Virus record (IMG/VR): IMGVR_UViG_3300009320_000419 | Span: 1 to 36,019 of that record | From: a virus | Strand: one strand, 5' to 3' | Length of the DNA stretch: 36,019 nucleotides | The notes under the pieces: generated by a model | Database searches by the model: none | What the model was told of the DNA's origin: nothing | What the model saw: only the letters and a program-made list of their open reading frames with translations | Part shown: piece after piece, positions 3,464-34,100 of the stretch | Numbering within the stretch: position 1 is the first letter of the stretch | Layout: each line of letters begins with the position of its first letter | Program-made: the position numbers and the translations under genes

Positions 3464-4428
3464 TAAGTCACCACGATTGAATCCGCTAAGTTTATTCGTC
3501 TCAACGACTGATCGGAAAAAATCACCAGTAAGTTAGGGCTGTAAACGCCAGCATCGCTATATTGATGAGTAATGCTGTGCGAATCAGGGTCGTTAACAGA
3601 CTCCTTTTCTCCATCACCAAAGCTCCAGTGACGTTGGATGATGTCTCCGTCGGTTTGGTCTACAAACTCGAAGGTTGTAGAAGTCGTACCGATTTCGGGA
3701 GTGACGTAGATAAAGCCCATGCCTTTATCATTTCGCACCTCGATGTAATCATTCTTCGTAACAACCCCGCTACCACCAAGCGAAGTGACCATACGCAACT
3801 GCACACTGAAATTTCCTTCTGATAAGTAGATATGCGTAGGGCTCTCGTCCGTTGAAAATGAACCATCTCCGAAGTCCCACAAGAACCGTACCGCCTCCTT
3901 ATTGGAGAAGTTTTGAAACCGTGCCCTGAATGGTGTCTGGCCATTGCGTGGATAAGCCCGAACCGATGGTTTAGGCGATAAGAACTTACGTTCTAGCGCC
4001 GTCAACGTGTAGTTGTACGTGTCTGACTCGGGACTAGCACTGGTACCTAGGTAATGCTCAATGTTGTAGATGGCATCCTTACAAGCGTTATGGTGCTCCG
4101 CCATAACGGAATGAGAAACTTCCGTCCCAACTGGGTGATACTGTTGCTTCGATCCACCAAAACCTCGTTTTAGGTCTTTGAGGACACCAGTAGTTTTCTC
4201 AGCGTAGTAAATGAGTTCTTCGCCAACCCGTACAAGGCCCTTACTTGGAAAGGCTGTCGTGTCTTCAACGACGATGAAGTTGCCGCCATACGTAAGACTG
4301 TGGACAAGTGCGGTCTCAGCGTTGTTCTTTACCTCGTATAGTTCATCGAAAGTGTCAAGAGCCTGTGGGAATACTGACAAATCACCAGCTTCGTAGCCGT
4401 CATCTAATGTGCTTACTCTATCCGCCAT
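3463..4428 (-). CDS. Two-PKD-domain tail protein
   Basis: The protein has 321 residues. Residues 1-130 form the shared N-terminal module, ending with AEHHNACKDAI (110-120) and IEHYLG (123-128). PKD domain 1 spans about 154-233 with LWDFGDGS near 183-190. PKD domain 2 spans about 236-321 with WSFGDGE near 268. There is no signal peptide, so surface display would come from assembly into the virion. It starts at ATG 4428 behind an AAGGAAAAG ribosome site and overlaps the next gene by its stop codon. It is the simplest of the three paralogues and may represent the basic plan: an attachment module plus immunoglobulin-like PKD domains. A virion adhesin is the best guess. Confidence 0.85.
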   Translation of the reverse strand: MADRVSTLDDGYEAGDLSVFPQALDTFDELYEVKNNAETALVHSLTYGGNFIVVEDTTAFPSKGLVRVGEELIYYAEKTTGVLKDLKRGFGGSKQQYHPVGTEVSHSVMAEHHNACKDAIYNIEHYLGTSASPESDTYNYTLTALERKFLSPKPSVRAYPRNGQTPFRARFQNFSNKEAVRFLWDFGDGSFSTDESPTHIYLSEGNFSVQLRMVTSLGGSGVVTKNDYIEVRNDKGMGFIYVTPEIGTTSTTFEFVDQTDGDIIQRHWSFGDGEKESVNDPDSHSITHQYSDAGVYSPNLLVIFSDQSLRRINLADSIVVT

Positions 4429-4463
4429 AAAGTTTCTTTTCCTTGGAGGTATTTACCGTTTGT

Positions 4464-5129
4464 CTATTGCTTTTCATTCTCTAGTGCAGGCTTTTCCTCA
4501 CGACCCACCATCTTCTTAACATCGCCTTTCCGTCCCTCGATCAATTTGACGGTAGCATCCTTGATAGGAAGGCCGCTCGGCATGGCCATCACCGTCTTGA
4601 AATCCTCGGGATTTGGTTGCTGGCTGAGAAGCAGTCGAGTCTCAATCTCCTGGGTCAACTTGGCATTCCAGTAGTTAGCTTGGACTTCTAAAGAGTCCCA
4701 ATCTTTTTCTGGTTCTACTTCTATCAGTTTCTCATAAAGGCCGATCAGGAAGTTTGCCTCGTTTTCTTTCGCCTTGATGGTTGACGCAAAGCTCTCGATC
4801 TGATGATCGACGCCCTTGATACGTCGCCTCGTCTGGCGAATCCTGATTTGCTCTTCTTCGGGCAAAGGTGCTTCGTTTGCTTCTTTGATCTTCTCAATCT
4901 CTAATTCATGCAAACGGCGTTGGTCGCATAAGTCTTCTAGCGCAACGACAATCGACTCTATCTCGTCTTTACGAGAAAGTAACTCTTTCTTACAAGCCCT
5001 AATTTTGGCTTGAATAGTAGGTTCCTTACCTATCACGAAGTACTGAAGTTGGAAGTACGAATGCTGGTTACGGTGGCCCTCTGGGCAAAGTTCATCGATC
5101 TTGTCTATCAAGTTTTTACTTTCGCTCAT
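4464..5129 (-). CDS. Coiled-coil protein of unknown function
   Basis: The 221-residue protein is chosen to start at ATG 5129, behind a GGAGA site. The reading frame extends 33 codons further up to 5228, but that extension crosses the divergent intergenic region and the start of the plus-strand gene. The sequence is rich in Glu, Lys, Arg and Leu with heptad-like patterning over about residues 40-165, so long helices or a coiled coil are likely. No membrane segment or catalytic motif is seen. It is the first gene of the leftward adhesin group and could be a virion scaffold or fibre-assembly factor, but nothing in the sequence fixes the role. Confidence 0.75.
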   Translation of the reverse strand: MSESKNLIDKIDELCPEGHRNQHSYFQLQYFVIGKEPTIQAKIRACKKELLSRKDEIESIVVALEDLCDQRRLHELEIEKIKEANEAPLPEEEQIRIRQTRRRIKGVDHQIESFASTIKAKENEANFLIGLYEKLIEVEPEKDWDSLEVQANYWNAKLTQEIETRLLLSQQPNPEDFKTVMAMPSGLPIKDATVKLIEGRKGDVKKMVGREEKPALENEKQ

Positions 5130-5197: not shown

Positions 5198-5761
5198 ATG
5201 GATGCACACGATTGGTTTCGATCAGCAATAAAGGGCAAAAACAAAGACGCTTTGCTAGGCACGGAGTGTTACCTTTCTGGTCCTATTGAACATGAGGACG
5301 ACAACTTGCCTGATTGGCGGCCACCCGTCATCAAGACGCTCACTGAAAGATTTGGTATCAATGTCCATGACCCCGCCCACGACGAAAAACAACAACGAGC
5401 GGCGAAACTAGAAACCGCCATTGAAGCAGGCGATTTTGACACCGCTGAACAGATCGCTACGTGCTTTGTTAAGAAAGACCTAGCGATCATTGATCGCTGT
5501 GATTTCCTAGTCGTCTATAACCCTTACAAGGTTCCCACGACAGGCACACCCTGCGAAGTTCATCATGCTGTACAGATCAAGAAACCTGTGATGATTGTCT
5601 GCCCGGAGGGAAAGAAAAACGTCTCTCGTTGGTACATGGGGTACCTACGACATAGGTATCTATTCGGTTCTTGGGGAGATTTGTACGAGTATCTCGATGG
5701 CGTAGACCGATACAAAGAGTACAAGAACCACCGTTGGTGGGTTGTGTATGGGTTGGTGTGA
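5198..5761 (+). CDS. Nucleoside 2-deoxyribosyltransferase-like enzyme
   Basis: The protein has 187 residues. YLSGPI at 25-30, followed by W40-R41 and HDP at 57-59, matches the N-terminal strand and substrate loop of the nucleoside 2-deoxyribosyltransferase superfamily. DRCDFLVVYNP (99-109) and GTPCEVHHAV (116-125) match the family's Asp strand and its GTxxE catalytic segment, which gives E120 as the probable nucleophile. Such enzymes move deoxyribose between bases, and phage versions are thought to act in nucleotide salvage or base modification. It starts at ATG 5198 behind GGAGGG. It is the first plus-strand gene of the accessory region, and a GG-rich pentamer array begins 23 bp after its stop. 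A TIR-like NADase has a related fold but is less likely here. Confidence 0.72.
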   Translation: MDAHDWFRSAIKGKNKDALLGTECYLSGPIEHEDDNLPDWRPPVIKTLTERFGINVHDPAHDEKQQRAAKLETAIEAGDFDTAEQIATCFVKKDLAIIDRCDFLVVYNPYKVPTTGTPCEVHHAVQIKKPVMIVCPEGKKNVSRWYMGYLRHRYLFGSWGDLYEYLDGVDRYKEYKNHRWWVVYGLV

Positions 5762-5783: not shown

Positions 5784-5848
5784 AAGCTATGGTCCGGTGG
5801 GGTTGGCTCTGGTACAGTCAGGCGAGGAACGGCAGGCAAATTTGGGTC
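5784..5848 (+). repeat. NNGGT pentamer array, third and most degenerate copy
   Basis: Thirteen consecutive 5-nt units follow the register seen at 14471 and 15511, with the third base G in 11 of 13 and a fourteenth fitting unit at 5849-5853. The first seven units end in T; later ones vary, and one unit (5839-5843) does not fit. The array begins 23 bp after the stop codon of the deoxyribosyltransferase-like gene and runs into the 48-bp repeat at 5844, which contains a weak TGGCTC/GAGCCA hairpin. The pair of units at 5789-5798 is identical to 14481-14490. Confidence 0.65.
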
Positions 5849-7447: not shown

Positions 7448-8086
7448 TCACGGCCTCTCGATACTGGTAGCGACGTTTCCACGCACAAACTGACCATCGT
7501 TGCAGACGAACCGAACAATTAGAGTATCGCCGTGTCCAGCATTTGGCACGTTGAGATCCCGTGGGATTTGGATATACATGTCCGCTGACGCATCGGAGTC
7601 CATGTCATAAAGATAAAACGGTGCCATCCCACCGCTATACAACCTTAGCGAGATCTCGTCCATCGGAAAAAACTGCATCTCAAATTCAAGTTCATCGCCT
7701 CGATAGTCCGCCGTGTTGTCGATGAAATCGGCGACCGAGACATATTCCCATCCACCTCCCGAACAACCCCGCAGACCGCCACAGCAAAGAACCATCACGC
7801 CAAAGGCAGGCAAGGCAATCTTCAACCAAAGCGGCCATGATGTTCTCTTCGATGCCTTCTGCTGGCCATGTCGTTGCGATACGCTTCTCGGACGACGCTC
7901 GTCGCCATCGGATGCGGACAACTGCGAGAAGTCGAAGCCTGGGCTGCCTTCTTGCGGTACAGCGGGCTTTGCGGACTGCCCAGGCATGACGAATTGTGTG
8001 CTGCAATGCGGACAGGTTACATTCTGGCCTGCGAGTTGCGGGTTGTTCTGGATTGCTCCGTTGCACTGCGGACATTGGACGTTCAT
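7448..8086 (-). CDS. Zinc-ribbon membrane protein of planctomycete type
   Basis: The 212-residue protein starts at ATG 8086, 8 nt after GGAGG; the longer frame to 8242 has no such site. Residues 4-36 form a zinc ribbon with two CPxC pairs (CPQC and CPHC) around NPQLAGQNV, ending QFVMP. This exact layout is frequent in planctomycete proteins. A charged, low-complexity linker leads to one membrane helix near 85-103 (LKIALPAFGVMVLCC), then a beta-rich domain of about 105 residues, probably outside the membrane. The function is unknown; related proteins are usually uncharacterised. It is the clearest host-type gene in the window and is probably acquired. It converges with the upstream two-gene unit. 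Confidence 0.75.
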   Translation of the reverse strand: MNVQCPQCNGAIQNNPQLAGQNVTCPHCSTQFVMPGQSAKPAVPQEGSPGFDFSQLSASDGDERRPRSVSQRHGQQKASKRTSWPLWLKIALPAFGVMVLCCGGLRGCSGGGWEYVSVADFIDNTADYRGDELEFEMQFFPMDEISLRLYSGGMAPFYLYDMDSDASADMYIQIPRDLNVPNAGHGDTLIVRFVCNDGQFVRGNVATSIERP

Positions 8087-8258
8087 CGTGTGGCCTCCGA
8101 GGTTAGGTGGTGATCCTCGATCTCGAAGCCCATCAAGAAAAAAAGAGGAGCGCCGAAACCAAGGCCGCTCCCCAGACCGTCGCCAAACGGCACTATTGAA
8201 CAGCACAAGGCCCGACGCTCCATACATGGAGCGCCGCACCAAGTGACTAATAGTTCAA

Positions 8259-12583: not shown

Positions 12584-13483
12584 CTACCCTACCGGAACTG
12601 TCTGGGGCGAGCAATTACGTACGTGGTCGAAGAAGTCGCTCCAGGACAGGGGCCTGTCTGCAATCCCAGCCATTACCGCAGGCGTCGTCCTAAACGTACT
12701 GATGATCCAGCAGTAGTTGTAGAAGGCGAAATGCAGGGCGACGGCAGCCACCAGATGTTCCAGTTTTCGAGAAAACGCATTGGTCTTGCGGGTCAGACGG
12801 CGGATGAATTGGCGGGTCGTGAGGTTGTTTCGCTCGACTAAGGAGGTGCTAATGTCCTTCTCGTCGACTCTCCCATAGAGGACTCGCTTGTTTACATCGA
12901 CCCACTTGCCTGTCGCCTCTCGCTCTTTCTTGCTCGTTTGTCTCTTCACAATCTGTGCATATTCGGCGTAGGGGCCGAAGGCCATCTTGACAGCACCTGC
13001 GTATGCTTGCCAGGCGTCAGTGGAAATGCGAGTGATAGGCTTGTATTGTCGTCGCTTGTAAGCATCGTCGTCCGATTCGTGCGGTTTCGGCCACTTGAGG
13101 CGTCCCGCCAACTCCGCCAGGAAAATCTCGGTCGCCTCGCCATGTCTACGTGCCACAAGGTGCGCCGGAACAAGGCGGCTGTCCTCGTCAAGTGCGACAA
13201 AGATATAATACTCGCCAATTCTGTCGTAGTCGGGTTCTTCTCCGGTCAGATTAAACTCCTTCTTTCTCACAAACGCCCACATTTCATCGACCTGGATGTG
13301 CCGTAACTCAAGGTCTCGCATCTCTCTGTCGAGGAAGTTCTGGCAGGCACGCCCAAAACGCAAGAGCAATCGAGCACATGTGTTTCTTGTAATACCTGTT
13401 TCTCGACAGATCGCTCGCATTGAAGTCCCATGCACAAGTCGCTGTAGGACGGTAATCTGCAGTCCTTTGGGCAAAGCGTTCAT
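12584..13483 (-). CDS. IS1-like DDE transposase
   Basis: The protein has 299 residues. A helix-turn-helix domain spans about 8-46 (SMRAICRETGITRNT). The DDE triad fits D66 (QVDEMWAFV), D156 (ISTDAWQAY) and E217 (SLVERNNLTTRQF), and FVALDEDSRLVPAHLV at about 95-110 is typical of IS1-like transposases. The frame is intact and unshifted, unlike enteric IS1, where the gene is split by frameshifting. GGAGG precedes the ATG. I could not find convincing inverted ends or a target duplication, so either the ends are diverged or the element is no longer complete. Length and motifs suggest the protein itself could be functional. Confidence 0.85.
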   Translation of the reverse strand: MNALPKGLQITVLQRLVHGTSMRAICRETGITRNTCARLLLRFGRACQNFLDREMRDLELRHIQVDEMWAFVRKKEFNLTGEEPDYDRIGEYYIFVALDEDSRLVPAHLVARRHGEATEIFLAELAGRLKWPKPHESDDDAYKRRQYKPITRISTDAWQAYAGAVKMAFGPYAEYAQIVKRQTSKKEREATGKWVDVNKRVLYGRVDEKDISTSLVERNNLTTRQFIRRLTRKTNAFSRKLEHLVAAVALHFAFYNYCWIISTFRTTPAVMAGIADRPLSWSDFFDHVRNCSPQTVPVG

Positions 13484-13505
13484 TGAAAAGCCTCCTGGGA
13501 AGTCC

Positions 13506-13539
13506 GCCCCTCCTCACTCGTTATCGGGTGAGGAGGGGC
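13506..13539. terminator. GC-rich hairpin upstream of the transposase
   Basis: A perfect 12-bp stem (13506-13517 with 13528-13539) with a 10-nt loop lies 22 bp upstream of the transposase start. It is downstream of the DnaQ-like gene on the same strand. Similar hairpins shield transposase genes from outside transcription. No T-run follows. Confidence 0.55.
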
Positions 13540-13621
13540 TTGGAAAAGAAATCGGTACGTTCCATTGCATCACGATGGTGGCGGTCGTGGTCGGGTCATG
13601 ACGCCCTCCTTCGAGAGAAGA

Positions 13622-14263
13622 TCAAACAGAAAGTAGCCCCATTTCGTTTGCGCAACTTGCGACCACGGTTATGTGATCTCTTAGCGAATACACTGCTTCC
13701 GTCTGACTCCTTTCTAGAATGTTGTAGAAGTGCTCGCTGTCATCAGGCGGCGTTGAAACGCTAAGAGTGCGGGCTAGGTCGTCCAGCGAGATGATCTGGT
13801 CGAGGCCAACGCACTTCCACTCATTCAGCAAGTCGATGAACGTCTTGCTCCAGTACTGCCGACCAGATCGATAGACAATGTCCGGCACTCGCACAGAGCA
13901 ACTCCAGGAACGGCGGACTAGGAACGGGAGGGTGAATCCCAGGACATTGAAGCCAAAAATTTTGGCCGTGAATCCGTTTACGCCTAAGAAGGCATCCCAA
14001 AACTGACGAAGCATGGCGGCTTCGTCGGCAACGTGAATCGAGTGCAACTTCTTACTCGGCTCATAGTAGCCAATCGCAATGATCCGTGAGCATTGCGGAT
14101 CATTGAACATGGCGGGATCATGGCCGCCACTGAACGGTTCACGTTCGATGTCAACGACGACATCGCCATCAGGACGGAAGGGACTGTCGCTAGAAATCAT
14201 GACGACAGGCTCGCCGACATTCTTGCTCCGTGATTTGGTCTTTCTGGTCTTGTTGTGAGTCAT
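13622..14263 (-). CDS. DnaQ-like (PolB-exo2-type) 3'-5' exonuclease fold, catalytic Asp missing
   Basis: The protein has 213 residues. The exonuclease motifs of the DEDD superfamily can be followed. Exo I is VVVDIE with D38 and E40. Exo II is FGFNVLGFTLPFLVRR (103-118), where the family normally has FNxxxFD: the Asp is Thr111. Then FIDLLNEW (142-149), and Exo III is YSLRD with D196. The order and the LPFLVRR run resemble predicted PolB-type 3'-5' exonucleases. Loss of the Exo II aspartate suggests a weak or dead enzyme, perhaps a nucleic-acid-binding protein. The N-terminal 18 residues are basic. It starts at ATG 14263 and diverges from the cassette at 14590. Confidence 0.68.
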   Translation of the reverse strand: MTHNKTRKTKSRSKNVGEPVVMISSDSPFRPDGDVVVDIEREPFSGGHDPAMFNDPQCSRIIAIGYYEPSKKLHSIHVADEAAMLRQFWDAFLGVNGFTAKIFGFNVLGFTLPFLVRRSWSCSVRVPDIVYRSGRQYWSKTFIDLLNEWKCVGLDQIISLDDLARTLSVSTPPDDSEHFYNILERSQTEAVYSLRDHITVVASCANEMGLLSV

Positions 14264-14470: not shown

Positions 14471-14535
14471 GTGGTAAGGCATGGTCCGGTTTGGTGGGAT
14501 AAGGTTAGGTAAGCTGGGATACGGCGAGGTGTGAC
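14471..14535 (+). repeat. 13-unit NNGGT pentamer array preceding a terminator
   Basis: Thirteen successive 5-nt units keep register without a slip. The third base is G in 13 of 13, the fourth is G in 9 (A in 3, C in 1), and the fifth is T in 10 and C in 3; the first two bases vary freely. The units before and after break the pattern, so the edges are sharp. The array ends one base before the stem of an intrinsic terminator (14536) and lies upstream of the gene at 14590. In a transcript it would present GGU every 5 nt. Confidence 0.85.
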
Positions 14536-14566
14536 ACAGCAGACATCATCTGCTGTTTTTATTTTT
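14536..14566 (+). terminator. Intrinsic terminator between array and gene
   Basis: An 8-bp stem (14536-14543 with 14549-14556) with a 5-nt loop is followed by TTTTTATTTTT. It points rightwards and stands 24 bp before the ATG at 14590, so transcripts that start before the array would stop before the gene unless read-through occurs: an attenuator-like layout. Confidence 0.85.
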
Positions 14567-14589: not shown

Positions 14590-15111
14590 ATGAAAATTAG
14601 GGCTAAGATTACTGGTACTGCTCCATTGCTTCATCATAAATGCAACCTCGGAACCGACGAGGGGGTTAACAAGAAAAAAGATGAGCCGCATGATGGCAAA
14701 AAGGAAGCCGAAAAGGCGTGTTACTGGGACGATGATATTGGTTGCTACTTACCTTCATGTCATATTGAAGCATCAATGAGGGAGGCGGCTAAGAACTTTA
14801 AGAACAAACGATCCAACCACAAGAATACAGTCTTGTCATCTGTATTCATTGATGATGAAAAAATACCACTAGGCACTCGTGAGTATGACATCGACATTCG
14901 ACCAGTTAATATCCAACGCAATAAAGTACTACGACACCGACCTAGGTTTGACAAGTGGTCGGTGGAATTTGTCGCCACGGTAGATGAAGACAGAATGAGT
15001 AAAGACTTGTTCTATGATATTCTTGTCGAGGCAGGAGCCACTAAGGGTGTCGGCGACCACCGGCCGAAGTTTGGTCGATTCAAAGTTGACGAATGCGAAG
15101 TGGCAACATAA
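14590..15111 (+). CDS. Possible RAMP/Cas7-like RNA-binding protein
   Basis: The 173-residue protein starts at ATG 14590 behind CAGGAG. The chain begins with a strand ending in TGTAPLLHH (8-16). LPSCHIEASMREAAKNF (54-70) resembles the PGSSLKGALR helix start of RAMP (Cas7/Csm3-type) proteins. VLRHRPRFDKWSVEF lies at 113-127, and a C-terminal Gly-rich loop GVGDHRPKFGRF (153-164) resembles the RAMP glycine loop. The ferredoxin-like assignment rests on these motifs by eye and is tentative. RAMP proteins bind RNA, often as filaments in regular nucleotide steps. The gene is preceded by the pentamer array and terminator and overlaps the next gene by 19 bp. An unrelated phage protein family remains possible; that the gene is real is much surer. 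Confidence 0.6.
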   Translation: MKIRAKITGTAPLLHHKCNLGTDEGVNKKKDEPHDGKKEAEKACYWDDDIGCYLPSCHIEASMREAAKNFKNKRSNHKNTVLSSVFIDDEKIPLGTREYDIDIRPVNIQRNKVLRHRPRFDKWSVEFVATVDEDRMSKDLFYDILVEAGATKGVGDHRPKFGRFKVDECEVAT

Positions 15112-15512
15112 ATGAGACTAAAACGACAATGGAAGACCAACCTATCGAGCCAGAAGTAGTCTTTTTGGAATTGTATATCAACAATACATGGCCTTGTCTT
15201 GGCACAAGAACACATGTGCGGCTTAATGAGTTATTTCCAGAGCCAGAAAACAAGGGCTTAAAGCACATATGGAAATACGGCCATGCAGATGTAGTTGTTG
15301 AGCGCAACAGTAAGGTAGTGGCGGTCCTCGAACCAGGCGGGAACCACCATCTGCAAGATGAAAAACAACGGCGTAACGACAGACGCAAATACAAGCTATG
15401 TGATATAAATGGTGTTCGGTGTTTGCACTATATGAACAACATAAGAGATGGGTTGTCGAATCGAAAATGGAGATCAATGATTGGTGGGGCAATTTTCGGG
15501 TACAGAGAATAA
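15093..15512 (+). CDS. PD-(D/E)xK-like nuclease (DUF2726/Vsr-like)
   Basis: The protein has 139 residues from ATG 15093; an in-frame ATG at 15129 would give 127, and neither has a clear ribosome site. HADVVVE (64-70), VVAVLEPGGNHH (75-86) and RNDRRKYKLCDINGVRCLHY (94-113) match the core of small restriction-fold nucleases: D66, E80, then H85/H86, and a basic helix with D96, K99 and K101. This is the pattern of DUF2726-type domains. The start overlaps the preceding gene by 19 bp, so the two are coupled. Its stop codon overlaps the first unit of a second pentamer array. A nicking or RNA/DNA-cleaving effector is plausible; the substrate is not known. Confidence 0.68.
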   Translation: MRSGNINETKTTMEDQPIEPEVVFLELYINNTWPCLGTRTHVRLNELFPEPENKGLKHIWKYGHADVVVERNSKVVAVLEPGGNHHLQDEKQRRNDRRKYKLCDINGVRCLHYMNNIRDGLSNRKWRSMIGGAIFGYRE

Positions 15513-15575
15513 GGTAAGGTGGGATCTACTGGGGTCTGGTAAGTTGGGGTGTGGTCTGCTGGGCTATGTATAGGC
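15511..15575 (+). repeat. 13-unit NNGGT pentamer array after the nuclease gene
   Basis: Thirteen 5-nt units begin on the last two bases of the upstream stop codon. The third base is G in 12 of 13 and the fifth is T or C in 12 of 13; the fourth varies more than in the 14471 copy. The length of 65 bp is identical to the 14471 array. An intrinsic-type hairpin starts at 15582. The two arrays share several units but are not copies of one another base for base, so the period itself seems to be conserved. Confidence 0.82.
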
Positions 15576-15581
15576 TGTGAA

Positions 15582-15625
15582 ACGGCTCCTTTTGATATCT
15601 TGGAAAGGAGCCGTCTTAGTTTTGC
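15582..15625 (+). terminator. Terminator between convergent genes
   Basis: A perfect 11-bp stem (15582-15592 with 15604-15614) with an 11-nt loop is followed by CTTAGTTTT on the plus strand. It closes the 14471-15614 cassette and separates it from the leftward gene that ends at 15629. Confidence 0.8.
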
Positions 15626-15628
15626 GAC

Positions 15629-16204
15629 TTAACCAACGATACGAGAGCTTAAAACACCCTTAAACCTACAACCCTTCTTGATTGCTGTGTAGGCCCAGAC
15701 AGTCTTCGCTTGTTCCAGATTGCTGATCTCCGGCAGGCGGCCGACACGTTTTAACACGTTCTCATGCAGCAGAAGGCCGTTCATTGAGCCGTCGATGAAG
15801 TTGGTGCACCCCCTGACTACGGGAAATAGGATGTCCTTATCATCTTCTAGGAACATGGTGTAGCGGACCCAGAAGTTAGGACGGATCATTGATCCGGCAA
15901 AGATGATAAAGTTCCAGTCTGCTTTCGTTTTGCTCAATCCAACGTTGATGAGAGAGGTGTAGGTCTCCTGACCCCGGTGAACGTCACAGACTGCTTTCAT
16001 GTAATCTGTAACGGTTCGCTTAGTACCTTTCGGTACAACAGCGATACAAGGGGCCTCAGAGAAGTGGCGGAGCGAGCGCACGGTGAGCAGTAGGCTCTTC
16101 GGATTTCGGTCTGGGCAAAGTACGACACAACCGAAATCTAAGTGTCGTGGTTCATGCATATTGTCATTAACTAAGAGGTTGATCGAAGTCGATTCGCAAG
16201 ACAT
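15629..16204 (-). CDS. Glycosyltransferase-like (GT-A/GT2 fold) protein
   Basis: The protein has up to 191 residues. FGCVVLCPDRNPKSLLLTVRSL (24-45) looks like the first strand and helix of GT2-type transferases. WNFIIFAGSMIRPNFW (near 96-111) sits where the DxD-bearing strand would be but has AGS instead of DxD. MNGLLLHENVLKRVGRLPE (near 142-160) matches the acceptor-side GGLFRR-like region. It is shorter than usual family members (about 230 or more residues). A start at 16204 overlaps the upstream gene by 38 bp; ATG 16159, 8 bp after that gene's stop, is an alternative. Such genes in tail clusters may glycosylate fibre proteins. Without DxD the activity is uncertain. Confidence 0.6.
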   Translation of the reverse strand: MSCESTSINLLVNDNMHEPRHLDFGCVVLCPDRNPKSLLLTVRSLRHFSEAPCIAVVPKGTKRTVTDYMKAVCDVHRGQETYTSLINVGLSKTKADWNFIIFAGSMIRPNFWVRYTMFLEDDKDILFPVVRGCTNFIDGSMNGLLLHENVLKRVGRLPEISNLEQAKTVWAYTAIKKGCRFKGVLSSRIVG

Positions 16205-31100: not shown

Positions 31101-34100
31101 CTCTTAATGCCACCTCTGATTATCTCAGAGAGCGACTTAGACTCAGTTGGAGGCGCTACTGCTGGACCTCCTTCGCCTATCTTTTCTGATCCTGGCTCGG
31201 CCCCTGCTATTTTCTCTCCTACAAATGGAATTTTTCGGATAGCCGCAAGAATCCCTTCAACAAAACCATCAATATAGGACTTTATTGTTTCAAAAGTGCC
31301 AACAATGGTGTCTTTAATAGGCGTCCAGACAGCATCGGCAACTGACTTAATTGTTTCCCAAGTGCCAACAATGGTGTCTTTAATAGGCGTCCAGACATAA
31401 TTGGCAACTGACTTAATTGTTTCCCAAGTGCCAACAATGGTGTCTTTGATTGGCGTCCAAACAGCGCTCGCCACCGCCGCAATAGTATCCCACACGCCAA
31501 GAACGACACCCTTAATAACCTCCCATGTGATCTCCACAGCTTTTCTTAATGGCCAGGTCGCCACCATAACGGCTTTCCAAGCCCCCATTACCACAGCTTT
31601 AATGCCTTTAAGAACTAAACCAACCCCTCGAAGAAGAAGGCGAAAACTTTTGATTACCATGCGAGGGCCAAATGTAATAGTCTTGAAGAATGCTGACACT
31701 ACTTTTCTCGTCGTCTCGACCGTAGTACTAGCCTTCTCGGCTTTATCGGAAACTAACCCCAACCAACGACCAAGTGCCTTCACCTTATCTGTGACCCAAG
31801 TAATTGGCTTAGTCACAGTTGCAAAAGCAGATTTCATCACCTCCCATGTTCCGATAACAGTGGCTTTAATGGGCGTCCAAATAGCGTTTGCAGTTGACTT
31901 GATAGTTTTCCAGGTTCCAACAACAATTTCTTTGATGGGTGTCCAAATGGCAGTTGCGGCTCCTTTAATGGCATCCCATACACCAAGAACAACGCCTTTA
32001 ATGATCTTCCATGTTAAAGTCACAGCTTTTCTAAACGGCCATGTGGCAAACATAATCGCCTTCCATATGCCCGTTACTACCATTTTCATAATCTTGAAGT
32101 TTGTTGCTACGAACTTGAAAAACGTTTTCCAGATAAACTTCTGAACAGCCCACCAACCTTGAATCCCTTTCTTAATCCATCCAAAGAAAGTTCCCCATAC
32201 TTTCTTTTGGATGCCCCACCACAACTTAACCCCTTTGTTGATCCAATCAAAAGCTGTCCTAAATGCTTTTTGTACGCCTTCAATCACTGGCTTCAAAGGA
32301 GCAAATACTGTTTCTAATCCCAACCATTCCCAAATCTTATTAAAGAACTTAGCCAAACCTTTCGTCCATGTCCCATCAGGCCCAAGGTGTTTCTTAAAGA
32401 CTCCGAATGTTAAAGCGTTAAAAGTACCAGTGAAAGAACCTACCGCCCCTGCCGAGGCTTTCATTCCCAGTGTTACTTCTTCTTGCTTAACGCCAAAGAT
32501 TTCAGCGGATTTTTCCATTGCCCTGAATCCACTGACAACACCACTCAAGGGGTTAGGAATATGGGATAGCACCTTTTCAACGCTGTTGAAGTGCTCAATA
32601 ATGTTTTTTCGCAGTGGTGAATCCTTATCAGCGAACACTTTGTAAAGTTCAGCGCCAGCACCTGCGATAGCACCAACAGCAGCGCCTACACCGGTTCCAA
32701 TAACGGGAAAAACAAGAGTACCGATTGCGGCACCACTCATTGCGCCAAATCCAGCAGCGCCTGCAACGCCTAGAGCTTCGTCAGCGGCCGTACCTTTTTC
32801 GATGCCGACCATACCGCTGAACATACTGCCCTTCCTTGCCCCACCTGTAAGGGCACCAAGGACGCCAGCCTCAAGTTTGCCGCCTATACCTTTACCTTTG
32901 AGTAGACCAGTTCCGGCACTTTCTGCTTCCACAACACCTGTTATTGCACCAACAACGGGAGCAAGAAAAGCAAGAGCTTTGCTGCCTACGGCACTAGCAC
33001 CCTTAGCAGCAGTTCCCAACATCTTTGACGCAGGTTCAAGAGTCTTTGATACACTGCCAAGAGCTTTTGATACGGGACTAAGGGCCTTTGAAGCACCACC
33101 AAGAGCTTTACTGCTCCCTGTGAGGCTTTGAGCCGAACTAGTAAGTCTTGTTGCCGAGTCGGCAAGGCGAGCAGTTGCTTTGGTTAAACCGGTGGTAATC
33201 TTTGCGCCAGATTTACCCACTACACCACTACCGGCCCCCTTTGGCAGAGATTTGGCAATTGAACTCCCCATGTGCCCAACATCGGTTGCCATAAAACCAA
33301 CGTCCATTACCTGCGCAGCGCCGGGAATATCATATAGACTAGGACCACCGAGCATCGATGAGATCATATCAGCAGTCATCATAGCCCCAGCGGCTTTACC
33401 CATGCGTCCGCCGCCCATTGGGCGTCGTGCTGCCGTAGGGCGTCGTGCTGCCATAGGACGACGGGCTGGTACCGCTGGGCGGCGAGGTGCAGGTCGACGG
33501 GGGCCTGCTCCACGTGCCATTGGACGGCGGCCTGCCACCGGACGTGGACGTGCAGGTGCTCGGCTACGCATCGTGGGCCGACGACCACCACGCATCCTAC
33601 CACGGCGTCCACGACGACCTACGCCAGGCAGGCCCATGCCTCCCATACCTTGGCGTCGAATAGCACTTTCAATTCTGCTAAGGGCGGTTAATTGCCTCTT
33701 GCCAAGTCGTTCGACATAGATATCATGGACGTAACCACTACCTCGCCTGGCAAGTTGATTCCACAACCTACCTGGCCAACTTTGTTTGCTCTTCCCCCAC
33801 CGATAAATGTCGGAGGCTATCTTCTTTGTTCCCTGTATGGCGTTCTTCACGAAGGTAAAAATAAGAACAGCCTGGCCCAAGATTGTCACGATCACAGCCA
33901 ACGGAGCTAACATAAAGGCAATTTTGGCAAACATACTCCCAAAAGTACTTTGAAGTAGCGTGTGAATCTCTCTAAGGTGATCCTCCATTCGAGTTTGTGG
34001 GTCTTGAAGCTGCTTTAGAAGAGTTGATGAGCGATCCATTGAGCCTTCAACTTGCTGGGTAAAGGTTTGCATCGCTGCTTCGTCACCTTTTGCATAAGCC

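Follow-up and report, generated by a model that had tools for sequence, protein, structure and literature searches.

VIPR systems were described in a 2026 preprint, in which the RAMP protein Vipr binds RNAs termed vrRNAs (PMC13142463). A vrRNA consists of 9-16 YNNGG repeats and a constant tail; its NN letters recognize double-stranded DNA with one target base skipped per unit, and the skips fall mostly on codon wobble positions (PMC13142463). Most natural targets are competing phages, satellites and prophages, and the systems are divided into types I-VII by Vipr phylogeny and by vap, the accessory genes being vap1-6 (PMC13142463). VIPRs that carry a nuclease are tied to host defence islands (PMC13142463).

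The DNA analysed here, referred to as the window, is the complete stretch of 36,019 nucleotides of IMG/VR virus record IMGVR_UViG_3300009320_000419. Judged by its sequence, the window comes from a large myovirus whose genome it covers only in part; a tail protein encoded in it is 39% identical, over 44% of the length, to one of a 595-kb phage. It contains a locus with the order vrRNA-B, vipr, vap, vrRNA-C that agrees point by point with the published VIPR description, and we consider it very likely that this is a VIPR system with guide B aimed at the DUF3820/ExoX genes of rival phages. Systems of this kind have been known since April 2026; the details that are new concern its predicted target, the pair of Vap proteins and the simple form of the tail. 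An earlier note on this DNA had stated that the GGU pentamers of array B match no described element, which is out of date since they correspond to the vrRNAs of VIPR (PMC13142463).

The vipr gene and its homologs

The gene vipr, located at 14590-15111 on the + strand, encodes a Cas7/Csm3-like RAMP protein of 173 aa that belongs to PHROG_4652, a family annotated as unknown function. Its start codon at 14590 lies 24 bp after position 14566, as the earlier note had it, and the RAMP-like character that was assigned to the downstream gene is borne out by homology to Vipr and by the Cas7/Csm3 fold. Comparison of the window protein by phmmer with the chain deposited as 'SUSP1 Vipr protein' in PDB 36pp (36pp_D) gave E=8.3e-16, and the Vipr family profile matched the same chain with E=1.5e-51. 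The AF2 (AlphaFold) model of the protein had a pLDDT of 90.2, and its best Foldseek and VIA-align matches were Csm3/Cas7 subunits, with a VIA-align Z of ~12, ~150 residues aligned and an rmsd of ~4. The C-terminal glycine-rich loop reads GVGDHRPKFGRF; its pattern GxGDxRPxxGxF is invariant or nearly so across 39 sequences. The product of the gene that follows array B is, on the strength of its homology to the SUSP1 Vipr of known structure, a Vipr RAMP protein, and the system was identified as VIPR.

The VIPR of Escherichia phage SUSP1 (Mooglevirus, type II; PDB 36pp; PMC13142463) resembles the window locus in its homologous Vipr, the YNNGG arrays that flank vipr, a guide of ~13 units, a structured 3' tail, the accessory gene that follows vipr and one-base-skip decoding. 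In the window, array B lies before vipr and array C after vap. The two systems differ in that the Vipr proteins are ~31% identical, the accessory genes are not the same, and the window tail is a simple 8-bp hairpin with a T tract whereas the SUSP1 tail is a pseudoknot. The window units are also more degenerate, and a third, remote array is present. The closest relative is found in a 135-kb viral sequence (IMGVR_UViG_3300020171_000017, L050), with 47-48% identity for Vipr, 51-53% for Vap and the same tail hairpin. Unlike in the window, vap precedes vipr in L050, its three arrays are all downstream of vipr, and they carry other NN letters.

With the backbone of class 1 CRISPR systems (Cas7/Csm3) the window protein shares the fold, with a VIA-align Z of ~12 to Csm3 and to type VII Cas7, and presumably the same filing along a guide RNA, but the guide is a 5-base repeat and not a repeat-spacer array. 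No CRISPR repeat-spacer array occurred among the tandem repeats of the window and no cas gene apart from the RAMP among the scanned neighbours, and CRISPR-Cas was rejected on these grounds. The in-gene tandem repeats of the window have units of 33 bp at 5-283 (left end) and of 66 bp at 31278-31517, the latter in a 2593-aa gene that possibly encodes a tape-measure protein. Two genes directly precede the VIPR locus, at 12584-14263 on the - strand; one is transposase-like, with weak matches to IS1/IS481, and the other resembles a 3'-5' exonuclease gene.

Repeat arrays and the tail of vrRNA-B

The repeat tract of vrRNA-B covers 14473-14537 on the + strand and comprises 13 GGYNN units, which is within the 9-16 YNNGG units of described vrRNAs, with conserved GGY and variable NN. 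Read in pentamers from 14471, the units are GTGGT AAGGC ATGGT CCGGT TTGGT GGGAT AAGGT TAGGT AAGCT GGGAT ACGGC GAGGT GTGAC. All 13 pentamers have G at the third and T or C at the fifth base, as had been noted earlier, and four have an imperfect triplet (GAT, GCT, GAT, GAC). The NN letters of the array are AA AT CC TT GG AA TA AA GG AC GA GT AC; a degenerate unit AATGT, which precedes the 13 units, contributes NN = GT.

Arrays were evaluated with a GGYNN array score, using shuffled sequences and control contigs as null. Array B scored 47.6, as compared to a maximum of 23.1 in 200 whole-window shuffles, and its periodicity was not reached in any of 2000 dinucleotide shuffles of the local sequence. 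No GGYNN array scoring at least 20 was found in the control contigs (1.04 Mb, both strands counted). The periodicity that the earlier note had pointed out is far beyond chance. A search of Rfam returned no family at gathering score, and thus no known structured RNA.

The window holds exactly three GGYNN arrays, all on the + strand (B, 47.6; C, 32.5; A, 32.2). Arrays A and C, which were absent from the earlier note, are more degenerate than B, yet none of 2000 local shuffles reached either of them. The vrRNA-C repeat tract (15513-15577, + strand) is located just after vap and consists of 13 degenerate units with NN letters AA GG CT GG CT AA GG GT CT GG AT TA TG. It is followed by a long inverted repeat in the fold at 15582-15614, which is probably a terminator that the convergent gene at 15629-16204 (- strand) also uses. 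The vrRNA-A-like tract, the weakest array (5786-5835, + strand, 10 units), is 9 kb from vipr and directly follows a nucleoside deoxyribosyltransferase-like gene at 5198-5761 (+ strand). No tail hairpin matching that of B was present in the inspected folds of A and C, and these two arrays may be decayed.

The 3' tail of vrRNA-B at 14536-14566 (+ strand) consists of an 8-bp hairpin and a T tract. The hairpin, ACAGCAGA-catca-TCTGCTGT, occupies 14536-14556 and is followed by the T tract; it shares its first bases with the end of the array, whereas the earlier note had placed a terminator one base after it. Each of the three L050 arrays ends in GGCAC plus an 8-bp hairpin, and array B ends in GACAC plus the same hairpin. 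When the tail of B was aligned with the three L050 tails, 96.9% of the cells were paired and 3 of the 8 pairs were changed on both sides. Since the hairpin is in place after all three L050 arrays and shows covariation, we read the earlier note's terminator as the constant vrRNA tail. Given the T tract, this tail may also act as an intrinsic terminator.

The predicted target of guide B

Units 2-10 of guide B (NN = AA AT CC TT GG AA TA AA GG) were used as a query with one skipped base per unit. This nine-unit query matched 36 viral contigs exactly, and in 34 of these the match was in frame with the skip at the wobble base. The in-frame matches spell [K/N][M/I]PFGKYKG, which is the DUF3820/ExoX motif. 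Downstream of the 34 matches 27 different sequences were found, with the W typical of the family present in 32. Two of the targets matched Pfam QSregVF_b/DUF3820 above cut-off; in named phages members of the family are annotated as ExoX/exonuclease or DUF3820, and they are common in large phages. The skip lengths scanned in the viral collection were 1 and 2, and the one-base rule gave the better fit: with a two-base skip the same letters matched 3 unrelated contigs. Units 5-13 of guide B matched a single contig, in a DUF3820-like gene reading FGKYKGTDV. No full 13-unit target was found in the databases, the best candidates being L037 with 24 and L011 with 23 of 26 bases.

For guide A no target was found. 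Nine units of guide C gave no match in the viral collection; there were 16 genome matches, but since the flanking units matched at random only, these were treated as chance. Within the window, none of guides A, B and C had a self-target above background.

Because guide B spells a conserved motif of a gene that is common in other phages, it is probably a weapon against the ExoX/DUF3820 genes of rival phages. Skipping the wobble bases would allow one guide to cover many synonymous variants and with these a whole protein family. The decoding of guide B to one motif in 34 viral genomes by the published rule gives independent support for the VIPR code in a distant phage. The locus leads to three predictions, namely ExoX/DUF3820 as target, a new accessory protein and a tail of simple form.

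By analogy to SUSP1, Vipr subunits would load along the vrRNA at one subunit for each 5-base unit, with GGY held and NN left exposed. The resulting complex would bind double-stranded DNA matching NN-x-NN-x-NN, with one base skipped per unit, and either repress the target gene or recruit Vap to it. Guide B would direct the complex to DUF3820/ExoX genes of competing phages, where Vap could act as a nuclease or helper.

It is very unlikely that the match of guide B to DUF3820 is a coincidence and that the true target lies elsewhere. We estimate that ~1-2 chance matches are expected for 18 fixed bases in such a collection, and the outer units of guide B match imperfectly, but 34 of the 36 matches fall on a single protein motif, all in the same frame and with the skips at wobble positions. 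Guides A and C each gave 0 matches, and 3 were obtained in the two-base-skip control. The guide might also be aimed at a host or own-lineage gene, for regulation or lysogeny control, instead of at rival phages. A SUSP1-type complex is a repressor and as such could act on any DNA, bacteria have DUF3820 genes as well, and no full 13-unit target was found that would place the genome of the target. Still, we find this reading unlikely: all DUF3820 matches came from the viral collection, large phages commonly carry the ExoX/DUF3820 family, no target was found in the window, which is however only a fragment of the genome, and satellites and prophages make up most of the published natural targets (PMC13142463). 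Decay of the locus, with A and C as relics and B perhaps no longer expressed, would agree with the scores of 32 for A and C against 48 for B, with the lack of a tail on the first two and with the four imperfect units of guide B. It is made quite improbable by the open and conserved vipr and vap genes, by the G and Y kept in 13 of 13 units of B together with a covarying tail, and by the intact motif that guide B decodes to.

The earlier note had put forward two other comparisons. TRAP sites in trp leaders comprise ~11 NAG triplets with 2-nt spacers and thus have a period of 5, near a hairpin; in a TRAP-like or other attenuation mechanism a ring protein on the repeats would control read-through into the downstream gene. 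The period of 5 and the hairpin with T tract before the gene are in line with this, but the likeness is only an analogy. The triplets are GGY and not NAG, the protein has a different fold, the downstream gene is vipr and not a trp-type operon, and attenuation logic is lacking. Furthermore, arrays also occur downstream of genes and 9 kb away, in relatives they are on either side of vipr, and in L050 the hairpin recurs downstream of vipr. A TRAP-type attenuator was rejected, and we regard attenuation of any kind as hardly credible. Type III toxin-antitoxin systems have RNA repeats of tens of bases before a gene for a ToxN-like endoribonuclease; with a 5-base unit and a RAMP protein encoded downstream, this comparison was also dropped. 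What stands of the earlier proposals is that the transcript may be the track of an oligomerising protein or a free RNA; control of read-through is not supported. As a VIPR component modelled on SUSP1, vrRNA-B is probably both, a free RNA along which Vipr oligomerises. Elsewhere in the window, at 7448-8242 on the - strand, a sub-threshold match to Anti-TRAP (E=4.8e-4) was observed, which is probably just a zinc-binding motif.

The accessory gene and the arrays of relatives

The gene vap (15129-15512, + strand) encodes an accessory protein of 127 aa; a longer start at 15093 is possible and would give 139 aa. Vap is 51-53% identical to the product of a gene beside vipr in L050 (BLASTP E=3e-45), where the gene order is swapped, and its assignment as accessory gene follows from this conserved place. 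Pfam (above cut-off), NCBIfam and PADLOC contained no close family for Vap, and sequence searches with Vap alone gave no relative in phages and viral contigs; the L050 relative was found via the vipr neighbourhood. The AF2 model, made from two sequences, had a pLDDT of 41 and was too poor to interpret.

PD-(D/E)XK nucleases have a D...E-x-(K/G) core in an alpha-beta-beta-beta-alpha-beta fold. Comparison of the two Vap sequences showed that D54, ExGG at 68-71 and H74 are kept. The resemblance of D54, E68-x-G-G and H74 to a DUF559/DUF2726-type PD-(D/E)XK core is suggestive only. Pfam DUF2726 matched Vap below threshold (E=0.035), and profile comparison with DUF559-type neighbours gave a weak alignment. 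In other vipr loci of this clade, DUF559 genes (L047, L052) or HNH genes (L048, L049, L061) are located between arrays; those of L047 and L049 were confirmed by Pfam and those of L052, L048 and L061 were read from the sequence. Vap is probably an effector or helper and possibly a PD-(D/E)XK nuclease, the latter prediction being the least certain step. A nuclease-type vap would suggest VIPR type III-V. We tentatively raise the possibility, which is itself doubtful, that this VIPR is phage-encoded and equipped with a nuclease of its own (Vap, which a second large phage shares), and that its motif-directed guide, by skipping wobble bases, attacks the ExoX/DUF3820 genes of many unrelated rivals at once. 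Because VIPRs with a nuclease were linked in the preprint to host defence islands, finding one in a phage would point to a new use.

The window Vipr matched 129 records of phages, the majority of them Felix O1-like, as well as three plasmids. Of these relatives, Mijalis, Gordonia Trine, Pseudomonas Medea1, DSL-LC04 and the Bradyrhizobium and Azospirillum plasmids were inspected first, and GGTNN or GGCNN arrays adjoin the vipr relative in every one of these genomes. In viral contigs, the Vipr protein as single query gave no close relative, but searching by profile yielded 577 candidate stretches that encode relatives, of which 80 loci were kept. Arrays were present on the vipr strand in 77 of the 80 loci, so the period is kept in related phages, as the earlier note had proposed to check. 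The three loci without an array carry sub-threshold ones. Opposite-strand arrays occur in 3 of the 80 loci (L070 1927-2001, L119 2561-2740 and L121 1549-1593).

The 199 distinct guides of relatives have G, G and Y at frequencies of 0.92, 0.90 and 0.93, with mixed NN. In a codon-frame test of these guides, NN as codon positions 1-2 was the best of six frames, with 89 guides. Since base composition by itself gave a better fit than did any of the codon frames, this test gives weak support.

In L064 (IMGVR_UViG_3300036798_000539), a vipr gene is accompanied at 3649-4569 by one in-phase run of 152 GGYNN units and by 32 further units; the array is about ten times the published vrRNA length. Decoded as a peptide it matched nothing in PHROGs or phages. 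Ten consecutive arrays lie beside one vipr gene in L058 (3572-4333) and in L111 (1850-2913). Metallophosphoesterase or calcineurin-like genes are found near vipr in L003, L005, L045 and L052 (plasmids and phages), and in two Bradyrhizobium plasmids such a gene is followed by one for an AAA ATPase.
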